Shown: one piece after another, positions 38,751 to 42,498 of the stretch
Numbering within the stretch: the stretch's first letter is position 1
Layout of the letters: each line of letters starts with the position of its first letter
Source: Rhodothermales bacterium
Lineage (GTDB): Bacteria > Bacteroidota > Rhodothermia > Rhodothermales > Bin80
Reading direction: 5' to 3'
Length of the DNA stretch: 64,000 bases
Assembly (NCBI GenBank): GCA_951812585.1
Contig: OX638318.1
Coordinates: 648,819 to 712,818, forward strand
Program-made: the position numbers and the translations under genes
Notes under the pieces: model-generated
Database searches by the model: none
What the model was told of the DNA's origin: nothing
Seen by the model: only the letters and a program-made list of their open reading frames with translations

Positions 38751-38885
38751 TCCCGTGTGCGTGCGAATTGCTCACCTACCCATGCGGAGCGCAGCCATCT
38801 GCTGATGGAGCCGTGCTTTTAAGGCCTGCTGCATGGATCCGTTCCCTCAGCATGGGGTTTGACTTTTGCACCACAAGGACTTGCT

Positions 38886-39851
38886 ATGCGACTTCGCCCC
38901 GTTTGCGCATTCATCTTTCTGGCAGGCACGCTTCCTTTATCTGCGACAGCACAACCCGGACCCGTGACGGGGTTTTCGTTCCTCCGCGTCGCGCCTTCGG
39001 CGCGCGCGGCGGCGCTCGGCGGCAGCCTTTCATCGGTGTGCTGCGAGGATCTGGGAGCTTTTTTTTACAACCCGGCCCTGCTGAGCACTTCCGTAGATCA
39101 GCTGCTTTCGGTGTCATATCTGAACCATCTGCATGACCTCAGTGCAGGATTTGCAGCGTACAGCCGTGATATCGGCACCTACGGGACAGCTGCCGCAGGC
39201 CTGCGGTTCTTCAGCTATGGGCAGCTGGAACGGGCAGACGAAGCGGGCAACCGCACGGGCACCTTCAGCGCATCCGATATCGTGCTGACGCTCGGCGGTG
39301 GACGGGCCTACCAAGACAATGTGCGCTATGGTGCCAGCATCCACCTGGTTTACACGGGCATTGATCAGTACCGCGCCACCGCCCTTCTGGTGGATGTCGG
39401 CATGGCGTATCATGATTCCGCGCGCCGGCTTACCGCCAGCGCCTCCATCAACGGCGCGGGCATGGTTTTGCGGTCTCTTGGATCGGTCGCCGACGAGGTT
39501 CCGCTGGATATAAGGGTCAGCGTCGCCAAAGGACTACGCTACGTGCCGCTGTTTGTAACACTCACCGCCTACAACCTGCACGACCTGGACGCACCCTTCG
39601 AAGGCAGCACGGCCGACCGCATCGCACAGCAGATGATCGTCGGGCTGGAGTTCAACGTGGTTGCTGCGTTTACGCTGCGGGCAGGATACAATCACCGGCA
39701 GCACCAGAACCTTTCCTCTGGCAGTCGCCTGGATATCGCCGGTGCTGGAATGGGCTTCGGACTGCGCGTCCGGCGATTTGCGTTAGATTACGCGTACTCC
39801 TCGTGGTCCTTTGCTGGGCTGCACCAGTTTACCGTCAGCGCTCGGTTGTAG
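38886..39851 (+). CDS. PorQ-like protein (type IX secretion / outer-membrane barrel)
   Basis: About 321 residues with a signal peptide (MRLRPVCAFIFLAGTLPLSATAQ). The mature start GFSFLRVAPSARAAALGGSL is the signature of PorV/PorQ proteins, followed by DLGAFFYNPALLS and many amphipathic strands ending in a terminal aromatic strand (SFAGLHQFTVSARL). This fits an outer-membrane barrel of the FadL-like group. PorQ proteins help attach or shuttle cargo in type IX secretion. The single-gene context and the ASARA-type motif favour PorQ, but I cannot exclude another member of the PorV family. Its 3' end overlaps the convergent recombinase-like gene by 17 bases. Confidence 0.8.
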   Translation: MRLRPVCAFIFLAGTLPLSATAQPGPVTGFSFLRVAPSARAAALGGSLSSVCCEDLGAFFYNPALLSTSVDQLLSVSYLNHLHDLSAGFAAYSRDIGTYGTAAAGLRFFSYGQLERADEAGNRTGTFSASDIVLTLGGGRAYQDNVRYGASIHLVYTGIDQYRATALLVDVGMAYHDSARRLTASASINGAGMVLRSLGSVADEVPLDIRVSVAKGLRYVPLFVTLTAYNLHDLDAPFEGSTADRIAQQMIVGLEFNVVAAFTLRAGYNHRQHQNLSSGSRLDIAGAGMGFGLRVRRFALDYAYSSWSFAGLHQFTVSARL

Positions 39852-40806
39852 CACTTCGGGGCACGAGGCCGCTTTTGCGCAGTTGGGCGATCTTCTTGTT
39901 CAGCCCTCGGGCACGCACTCGGCTCCGGATATCATCCATACTCTTCCCGTCACTGAGCCAGAGGACGAGGGCGGTAAGCGTCAGACTCTTGGTGGTCACA
40001 CCTTGACGCTGTACGCGCGCTTTGGCGAGGTAGTTGGCGATGCGCCGGCGTAACGAGCGGGCATCGAGGCGCCCCCCATTGCTCCGGTGCGAGTGAGACA
40101 GAAACAGCGGGTCGGTAAGGCTCCGTGCCGGGCGTGTTTCAAGGTACGCCCTGATTTTATGCACCACGGGCTCATCGAGCGGCACCGATTGTGTCATCCG
40201 CGAGTTTCGGGCACCGCCGACTCTCAGGTGTACGCCAAGGAGCGACTGCTCCAGGTCTCCTACGTTGGCCCGCTCAATCTCCGATACGGTAAGGCCTGCG
40301 TAGAGCAAGCCGTAGATGATGGCGAAATCGCGCTTGCCGATCCTGGTGCTGGTGTCCACCACCTCCAGGAGCGCATAGATTTCGGACTCAGTCAGGGGCT
40401 GCGTTGAACGCGCTGCCGGGCGCGCTATGCTCTTCATGTGCGCCGTGGGATCATTCGGCAAGAACCCTGTTGAGACCAAGTACTTGCAGAACTGGCGCAG
40501 CGCCGTGACGTACGTGGCTACGGTGCGCGACTGCAGGTCCTCTTCCACGACGAGGTAGTCCACATAGTCGTCCATCGCTGCCCTCGTCATGGGGCAGTAG
40601 CCGCCGCGCTGCTCCAGCCAGTGTCCGAACCGGTTCAGGCACCGGTTGTAGGTCCCTTGCGTGGAACGGGCCTTGTTACGCAGGCATTCCGTCAGAAAGG
40701 CTCGCTGCCGGTGCTTCAGCTCACTGAGCGTGAGCACCTGCACGCCTACCCTAAGCGCTTCCGTGGGCTGACCTATGATAGCCTGCGCGATCATCGCTAA
40801 CGCCAT
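39835..40806 (-). CDS. Tyrosine recombinase homologue lacking catalytic residues
   Basis: A 323-residue intact frame with the XerC/D layout. An N-terminal SAM-like DNA-binding domain spans about residues 28-130 (RTVATYVTALRQFCKYLVS). A catalytic-like domain spans about 140-310 (FAIIYGLLYAGLTVSEIERA). The first catalytic Arg of LLYATGLRVSE is Thr173 here. The beta-turn lysine block is GGARNSRMTQSVPL. The HxLR motif reads KSLT (273-276), and no tyrosine occurs in the expected C-terminal place. The gene starts 9 bases after the dehydrogenase E2 gene, so it is probably co-expressed. It may bind DNA without cutting it. See findings. Confidence 0.8.
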   Translation of the reverse strand: MALAMIAQAIIGQPTEALRVGVQVLTLSELKHRQRAFLTECLRNKARSTQGTYNRCLNRFGHWLEQRGGYCPMTRAAMDDYVDYLVVEEDLQSRTVATYVTALRQFCKYLVSTGFLPNDPTAHMKSIARPAARSTQPLTESEIYALLEVVDTSTRIGKRDFAIIYGLLYAGLTVSEIERANVGDLEQSLLGVHLRVGGARNSRMTQSVPLDEPVVHKIRAYLETRPARSLTDPLFLSHSHRSNGGRLDARSLRRRIANYLAKARVQRQGVTTKSLTLTALVLWLSDGKSMDDIRSRVRARGLNKKIAQLRKSGLVPRSATTER

Positions 40807-40815
40807 AACAGCTGA

Positions 40816-42498
40816 TCAAATCTCCAGCGTGGGGTCAAACGACTCCACTACCGAGGCAAATTTTCGTAGGAATGATATGCCCATCGCGCCATCAATGATC
40901 CTGTGGTCATACGAGAGCGACAGGTACATCATGTGCCGAATGGCAATCACATCGCCGAGAGCGGGGTCTTCCACCACCACCGGCCGTTTCTTGATCGCCC
41001 CGGTAGCCAGGATGGCTACCTGCGGTTGCAGGATTATGGGTGTTCCCATGATGGAGCCCAGCGATCCCAGGTTGGTAAGCGTGAAGGTGCCGCCCTGCAG
41101 GTCATCCGGATTCAGTTCGTTTGCCCGTGCCCGTGCGGCCAGGTTGTGGGCCGCATGGGCGAGGCCAGCCACGCGCTGCCGACCGGCATGCTTGATCACC
41201 GGTACGATCAGTCCCGTCTTGTCGATGTTGACTGCTACACCGATGTGGTAATCCTTCTTGATGATGATGGACGTTCCCTCGACCGAGGCATTGAGGATCG
41301 GGTGATCCCGCAGCGCTTCCACGACGGCGTACACCAGAAACGGCGTATAGGTCAGCTTGATGCCATCCTGCTGCAGAAATGCGTGCTTGTGGGTCTCGCG
41401 CAGCCGCACCAGGTTGGTGGCGTCTACTTCTGCGAACGAGGTCACATGGGCTGCCGTCTTGCGCGAAAGCGTCATGTGGTGGGCAACCAGCTGACGCATC
41501 CGATCCATTTCGATCACTTCTTCCCGCGGCCCAGCCGCTCTTGGCACCGTTACCTTCGGCGAATGCTCGGGCGCAGCTGCCGCAAGCGGGCGCTCGGGCG
41601 CAGCTGTTGTCGGCGGCCGCTTGCGAGCCGCGATGTAGTCCAAAAGATCTTTCTTGTTGATGCGACCGCGGCTGCCGGAGCCTTTGATGCCAACGAGCTC
41701 GTCAGTGCTGATGCCTTCCTGCTGCGCTATGGACCGCACCAGGGGCGTAAGGAACCGTCCGTCGCTCAGGTGACGACCATCCGAAGGCGTTTCCTTCTCC
41801 TGTGCTCCGTCCACCTGATCTTCGGGGCCTTCAGACGACACTGCTTCCGCCGTTGCCACATTTACAGCCTCGTCTGTGGCGATGATTGCAATCAGCGTAC
41901 CCACCGCAACGGTCTCGCCCGCAGGAACCAGGATCTCCTGCAGTGTTCCCTTGGCGGGCGATGGCACATCCGTGTCCACCTTGTCCGTTCCGATCTCCAG
42001 AATGGTTTCATCGAGCGCAACCGCATCTCCGGGCTCCTTGTACCATGCGATCACCGTGCCCTCGGTGATGCTTTCTCCCATCTTGGGCATGATCACCGGC
42101 TCCGTAGCAGTAGGCGCGGGGCGAATCGTTGCGCGAGGAGCGCCTTTGGATGTGGAGCCTGTCGTGGCTGTGCGGCTTGGCGCGGCCGCTGATGCGGCGC
42201 TAGGCGAGGCTGTGGATGCAGGTTGAGGCACAGCCGGAGGCGGGGTGGCTGCGGTGGTGCCGACTTGTATGCGTGCAATCGGCGTGCCTACGTCAACGGT
42301 CGTGCCCTCTTCTACGAGAATCTCCGCAAGGATGCCCGCGTCAGATGCGGGAATCTCGGTGTCGACCTTGTCCGTGCCGATCTCCAGAAGGATCTCATCC
42401 TGTGCGACCGCCTCGCCCACCTTCTTGTACCACGTGATGACCGTGCCCTCGGTGATGCTTTCTCCCATCTTGGGCATGAGCACATCTACTACGGGCAT
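40816..42498 (-). CDS. 2-oxoacid dehydrogenase E2 (dihydrolipoyl acyltransferase), two lipoyl domains
   Basis: A 560-residue core component of a 2-oxoacid dehydrogenase complex. Two lipoyl domains are present (about 1-80 and 130-215), each with MPKMGESITEGT and the lipoylated lysine in IGTDKVDT. They are joined by Ala/Pro/Ser-rich linkers. The peripheral subunit-binding domain lies near 250-285 (FLTPLVRSIAQQEGISTDEL). The catalytic domain fills the C-terminal part and ends with SYDHRIIDGAMGISFLRKF, containing the catalytic histidine. The MGESITEGT form is common in succinyltransferases (sucB), but pyruvate or branched-chain substrates cannot be excluded. E1 and E3 genes are not adjacent. Confidence 0.9.
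   Translation of the reverse strand: MPVVDVLMPKMGESITEGTVITWYKKVGEAVAQDEILLEIGTDKVDTEIPASDAGILAEILVEEGTTVDVGTPIARIQVGTTAATPPPAVPQPASTASPSAASAAAPSRTATTGSTSKGAPRATIRPAPTATEPVIMPKMGESITEGTVIAWYKEPGDAVALDETILEIGTDKVDTDVPSPAKGTLQEILVPAGETVAVGTLIAIIATDEAVNVATAEAVSSEGPEDQVDGAQEKETPSDGRHLSDGRFLTPLVRSIAQQEGISTDELVGIKGSGSRGRINKKDLLDYIAARKRPPTTAAPERPLAAAAPEHSPKVTVPRAAGPREEVIEMDRMRQLVAHHMTLSRKTAAHVTSFAEVDATNLVRLRETHKHAFLQQDGIKLTYTPFLVYAVVEALRDHPILNASVEGTSIIIKKDYHIGVAVNIDKTGLIVPVIKHAGRQRVAGLAHAAHNLAARARANELNPDDLQGGTFTLTNLGSLGSIMGTPIILQPQVAILATGAIKKRPVVVEDPALGDVIAIRHMMYLSLSYDHRIIDGAMGISFLRKFASVVESFDPTLEI

Follow-up and report, generated by a model that had tools for sequence, protein, structure and literature searches.

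The window, as we call the whole stretch of 64,000 nucleotides of a Rhodothermales bacterium genome that was analysed, encodes a protein predicted to have the complete fold of a tyrosine recombinase and in which every catalytic residue has been replaced. It is best explained, with a probability that we put at roughly 0.6, as a chromosomal, vertically inherited, single-copy and non-catalytic Xer paralogue that would act as a DNA-binding regulator or as an architectural protein. If so, its family would provide a natural series for studying the passage from enzyme to binding protein, in which the catalytic residues are lost one by one along the tree. The gene, its relevant codons and its two immediate neighbours are the following:

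39835..40806, minus strand: non-catalytic Xer-type (simple tyrosine recombinase) paralogue, 323 aa (ORF, Pfam, model/fold match to XerA/XerH/Cre, orthologues)
40470..40725, minus strand: core-binding (N-terminal SAM-like) domain, approximately residues 28-112 (Pfam residues 43-113; model helices 27-40, 47-66, 75-88 and 93-112)
40288..40290, minus strand: codon 173 (Thr), Arg-I position (alignment)
40210..40212, minus strand: codon 199 (Ala), position of the beta-hairpin lysine (alignment)
39979..39990, minus strand: codons 273-276 (KSLT), HxxR motif (alignment)
39910..39912, minus strand: codon 299 (Ala), His/Trp-III position (alignment)
39883..39885, minus strand: codon 308 (Gln), position of the nucleophilic tyrosine (alignment)
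40816..42498, minus strand: SucB-type 2-oxoacid dehydrogenase E2, a conserved neighbour directly upstream in Rhodothermales (NCBIfam; locus survey)
38859..39851, plus strand: porQ (type IX secretion), convergent neighbour (NCBIfam PorQ above cut-off; locus survey)

The gene runs from an ATG start to a TGA stop without internal stop codons, begins 9 bases after the end of the upstream E2 gene and shares 17 bases with porQ, tail to tail. Its surroundings are of a housekeeping kind and comprise, in order, ribose-phosphate pyrophosphokinase, ribosomal protein L25, peptidyl-tRNA hydrolase, a membrane pyrophosphatase, E2, the paralogue, porQ, secA and recN. In agreement with a preliminary description of this DNA as holding an intact, full-length frame with a core-binding domain, Pfam recognizes Phage_int_SAM_1 in the 323-aa product at 1e-7; the catalytic Phage_integrase domain was not found in it by Pfam. 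The NCBIfam models for XerD and XerC score 86.4 bits (curated cut-off 329.6) and 73.6 bits (curated cut-off 335.15), that is, about a quarter of what assignment to either equivalog calls for. Elsewhere in the same genome, one integrase occurs in two near-identical regions (L022, G000:C1:1175223; L023, G000:C1:231103), one copy being truncated (frames of 151 and 275 aa), with a flanking peptidase-like frame common to both.

The canonical active site of tyrosine recombinases is R-K-H-R-(H/W)-Y. In a MAFFT alignment of 121 non-redundant family members (95 from Rhodothermales and 26 from elsewhere), the window protein has Thr173, Ala199, Lys273, Thr276, Ala299 and Gln308 at these positions. The columns are secure because relatives retain partial motifs in recognisable context (AGLSEIE, VQGKGHTVKD, PHSLTHT, RMRHGT, TTMIY) and because all 17 intact recombinases included in this alignment show RKHRHY. 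An independent alignment of the family profile with E. coli XerD (1a0p) also gives Ser at Arg-I and Thr at Arg-II, so that misplacement of the catalytic residues by the alignment is ruled out, each column being anchored by SKHTHY and SKHRHY orthologues. The preliminary description had put Thr173 at Arg-I and Lys273...Thr276 at HxxR, which are the exact positions, and had noted a changed C-terminal tyrosine and no evident beta-hairpin lysine, for which the alignment gives Gln308 and Ala199; an intact R-K-H-R-H-Y was looked for and T-A-K-T-A-Q was found. Its broader claim that all catalytic residues are replaced is true of the window's lineage but not of most Rhodothermales orthologues, whose commonest state, SKHTHY (64/95), lacks the two arginines only.

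The predicted structure (AlphaFold, 38 aligned sequences; pLDDT 88.4, pTM 0.71) shows the complete two-domain fold, with a core-binding and a catalytic-fold domain, and matches XerA, XerH, Cre and the integron and lambda integrases with Z of 17-19 across 260-290 residues. Against XerA, the Z is 19.1 and the rmsd 15.2, with the domains rotated; such large rmsd values to apo XerA and XerD arise because the interdomain angle differs. Against DNA-bound XerH, the Z is 19.0 and the rmsd 4.3 over 281 residues (a second XerH value is 3.6), a match of the model that speaks for the fold, not for DNA binding. MrpR/YopR and the phage repressor SroF are also found among the structural matches.

The family forms one clade (support 100/99) in a maximum likelihood tree of 74 proteins, apart from XerC, from XerD and from two sets of intact Xer-like recombinases of Rhodothermales, here called set A and set B; the window protein branches outside both the XerC and XerD clades. 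Arg-I is found in none of the 95 Rhodothermales sequences and is absent from 23 of the 26 others, and Arg-II is kept in 2/95 Rhodothermales sequences (its usual replacement being Thr) as against 21/26 outside the order. Losses of His, Lys and Tyr are concentrated in the window's own bacterial family, outside which many sequences still have Lys and Tyr; each of the 11 members of that family that were examined has substitutions at both His-II and His-III, against changes in approximately 26-45% of the other columns invariant across the order. The three sequences with Arg at position I (L096 from G305; L098 and L100 from G259 and G112), all from outside the order, are represented by two tips in the tree, and L096 carries all six catalytic residues, RKHRHY. 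These tips are nested, and a single change therefore suffices on the tree, most simply a regain. By parsimony on the sampled tree, whose root rests on the XerCD outgroup, the loss is stepwise: Arg-I would have been absent already at the root of the sampled family, Arg-II would have gone in the Rhodothermales lineage, and His, Lys and Tyr in the window's family. Because of this distribution of Arg-I, Arg-II and His, catalysis would thus have been abandoned early, with the remaining active-site residues drifting later.

One match each was retrieved by protein search from 36 of 39 Rhodothermales genomes (with a second, weak match in one genome), and a profile search found the family in 62 of the 296 genomes of the phylum. 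Loci of the family are also present in named records of Rhodothermus, Salinibacter, Salinivenus, Longimonas, Rubrivirga and Roseithermus, which identify the order as Rhodothermales. Beyond Rhodothermales, it occurs in at least 11 families, one of them from the same class, with lower scores, the weakest two (G072, G278) being borderline. Of 93 non-redundant Rhodothermales loci, 64 have E2 immediately upstream in the same orientation, and porQ is present and convergent in 51 of the 83 with flanking sequence. The search for orthologues in the same place in relatives that had been proposed beforehand thus found them, usually directly behind E2. The gene had also been described as fixed 9 bases behind E2 and overlapping porQ; this is correct in the window, but the E2 linkage is a property of Rhodothermales and not of the protein's function. 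Other neighbours are found outside the order, and in eight genomes (L177, L179, L181, L183, L184, L188, L191 and L192) the next gene downstream on the same strand is leucyl-tRNA-synthetase-like, as called by Pfam for one genome and by BLAST clustering for the remainder. The place between housekeeping genes is kept across the order, which rules out a mobile integrase or its remnant. The term “domesticated”, which suggests capture from a mobile element, needs qualification: no mobile-element relative of the family was found, and according to the tree the family is old, has been inherited vertically and is related to simple recombinases of the Xer type.

Pairwise dN/dS values (Nei-Gojobori) range from 0.03 to 0.16 for close pairs across Rhodothermales and from 0.12 to 0.18 inside a genus of the window's own family in which both His and usually Tyr have been lost. 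They are far below 1, which points to purifying selection, and the gene has therefore been retained without its active site. Neutral decay in all relatives, which would have spoken against the original proposal, did not appear; with the catalytic residues gone, intact single-copy orthologues and dN/dS of 0.03-0.18 in close pairs, the statement that this protein is not an integrase is well supported. Two observations count against our preferred explanation: the window protein and its two nearest relatives give dN/dS of 0.24 and 0.28 at a dS of about 1.4, near saturation, where values are rough, and the DNA-facing domains have diverged faster in the window's clade than elsewhere in the order, core-binding domain identity being 0.42 in that clade and 0.60 in the rest of the order. 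Even the clade with the most degenerate sequences retains residues such as Tyr53, Arg159, Asp160, Arg246, Arg250 and Arg255.

The predicted fold, the basic charge (pI ~10.2, with 49 Lys and Arg against 29 Asp and Glu) and the retained residues, arginines among them, suggest that the protein binds DNA, although a basic charge is equally found in active recombinases, which counts against its use as evidence. With its core-binding and catalytic-fold domains closing as a C-shaped clamp, the protein would still grip a specific DNA site, which it would occupy or bend, acting as a transcriptional regulator or as an architectural DNA-binding protein, possibly in the manner of the tyrosine-recombinase-fold repressor MrpR. 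Our preference for a regulator over an architectural protein or a partner subunit comes from binary comparison only.

The possible part of such a protein in chromosome dimer resolution has to be considered in view of the Xer complement of the order. No XerD above the curated cut-off was found in 39 Rhodothermales genomes and no XerC in 59. XerD exceeded the cut-off in all 24 genomes tested from elsewhere in the class and phylum, each also with a second match, XerC-like in nearly all, and in other groups the non-catalytic family coexists with a complete XerCD pair. Of 23 genomes from outside the order, 19 contain the canonical dif pattern, which is often almost perfectly palindromic there; among 17 Rhodothermales genomes, no palindromic canonical dif was found and the pattern occurred, non-palindromic, in two, a suggestive absence given that one exact pattern was searched, that a diverged dif would be missed and that GC-rich genomes yield fewer chance matches. 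FtsK gamma is retained in all 17 Rhodothermales genomes tested. An intact RKHRHY Xer-like gene is present in 32 of 39 Rhodothermales genomes, set A in the window's family and a few others, set B in most other Rhodothermales, in a complementary distribution (in two genomes, set B is accompanied by a weak, partial match to set A); this gene is likely the dimer resolvase of the order. It has miaA as a neighbour in 11 of 16 loci, whichever set is present; examples are L248:5968-6873 (in the window's own genome, G000:C1:3134605-3135417) and L240:6001-6951. The two sets are unrelated and occupy mutually exclusive genomes with a common miaA neighbourhood, as if one had displaced the other in place. 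In the complete genome G017, the top match to the XerC model is the non-catalytic protein (L034; G017:C1:457025-457831), which automatic annotation may label as XerC. There is thus an annotation trap, since “XerC present” would be wrong for at least one complete genome of Rhodothermales; and, with XerC, XerD and canonical dif apparently lacking, one may ask how the order resolves chromosome dimers. In the open-licence literature, we found no paper on Rhodothermales and tyrosine recombinases, or on Salinibacter with XerC, XerD and dif.

From this situation comes the main rival of the DNA-binding account, in which the protein would be a non-catalytic partner subunit of the intact set A or set B recombinase, forming half of a pseudo-heterotetramer on a two-half site and controlling dimer resolution. 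Rhodothermales without XerC or XerD over the cut-off yet with FtsK gamma, and with one intact Xer-like gene, often beside miaA, alongside the non-catalytic gene, would fit it. However, the coexistence of the family with complete XerCD in other groups means that the partner must have changed, sets A and B lie in separate clades and the non-catalytic protein has no corresponding split, and no site was found; we hold this reading to be unlikely. Its stronger form, that XerCD-dif has been replaced in the order by a single intact Xer-like recombinase with the non-catalytic paralogue as obligate partner, appears doubtful enough to be called improbable, although, if true, it would reveal a dimer-resolution machine with a pseudo-enzyme as one subunit type.

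A regulator specific to the neighbouring metabolic operon is suggested by the E2 gene directly upstream in 64 of 93 loci, but the other 29, including Rhodothermus, have no E2 there, the neighbours in other families are leucyl-tRNA synthetase or other genes, and a gap of 9 bases is too small for an operator, which together leave it a small chance. We give very little credit to an active recombinase using other residues: the related genomes outside the order that bear Arg-I, including one (G305) with RKHRHY, and the Lys and Tyr so widely kept outside the window's family would be in its favour, but both arginines are gone in nearly all Rhodothermales, the window protein has lost the tyrosine nucleophile as well, and the nested Arg-I bearers need one change only. 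Hardly anything is left for an old integrase decaying as a pseudogene, despite the lost catalytic residues and the faster divergence in the window's family, since full-length, intact frames in nearly all genomes, a conserved place and dN/dS far below 1 contradict it.

To our knowledge, the bacterial recombinase folds known to have turned into DNA-binding proteins are mainly phage repressors, and by analogy the family studied here would be a chromosomal case of such recruitment. With XerC and XerD it shares two-domain architecture and length, they provide its best sequence models, though far below the cut-off, and its fold is that of XerA, XerH and XerD; it differs in having lost the catalytic residues, in forming a separate clade and in coexisting with true XerC and XerD in other groups. 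MrpR (YopR), the master repressor of the Bacillus prophage SPbeta, has a tyrosine-recombinase fold without recombination activity and represses by binding DNA, its Arg-I being changed to Val or Ser, its His to Asn and its Arg-II replaced; its authors suspect a wider occurrence of such recruitment (PMC10516654). MrpR and SroF resemble the window's protein in that they have this fold, lack Arg-I and further catalytic residues and must serve a role other than recombination. Nevertheless, MrpR is a phage gene whose DNA binding is demonstrated, whereas our family is chromosomal and order-wide and its DNA binding inferred; both repressors match with Z of 13-15, a different domain arrangement and 8-12% identity, and MrpR (8a0a; Z 13.5, rmsd 17.8, 8% identity) ranks below many active recombinases. 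Crypton-derived and ALOG proteins are reported to be likewise derived from tyrosine recombinases and kept for DNA binding, and may be set beside our family by that description, although they are eukaryotic and come from transposons (PMC3212892, PMC3537659).
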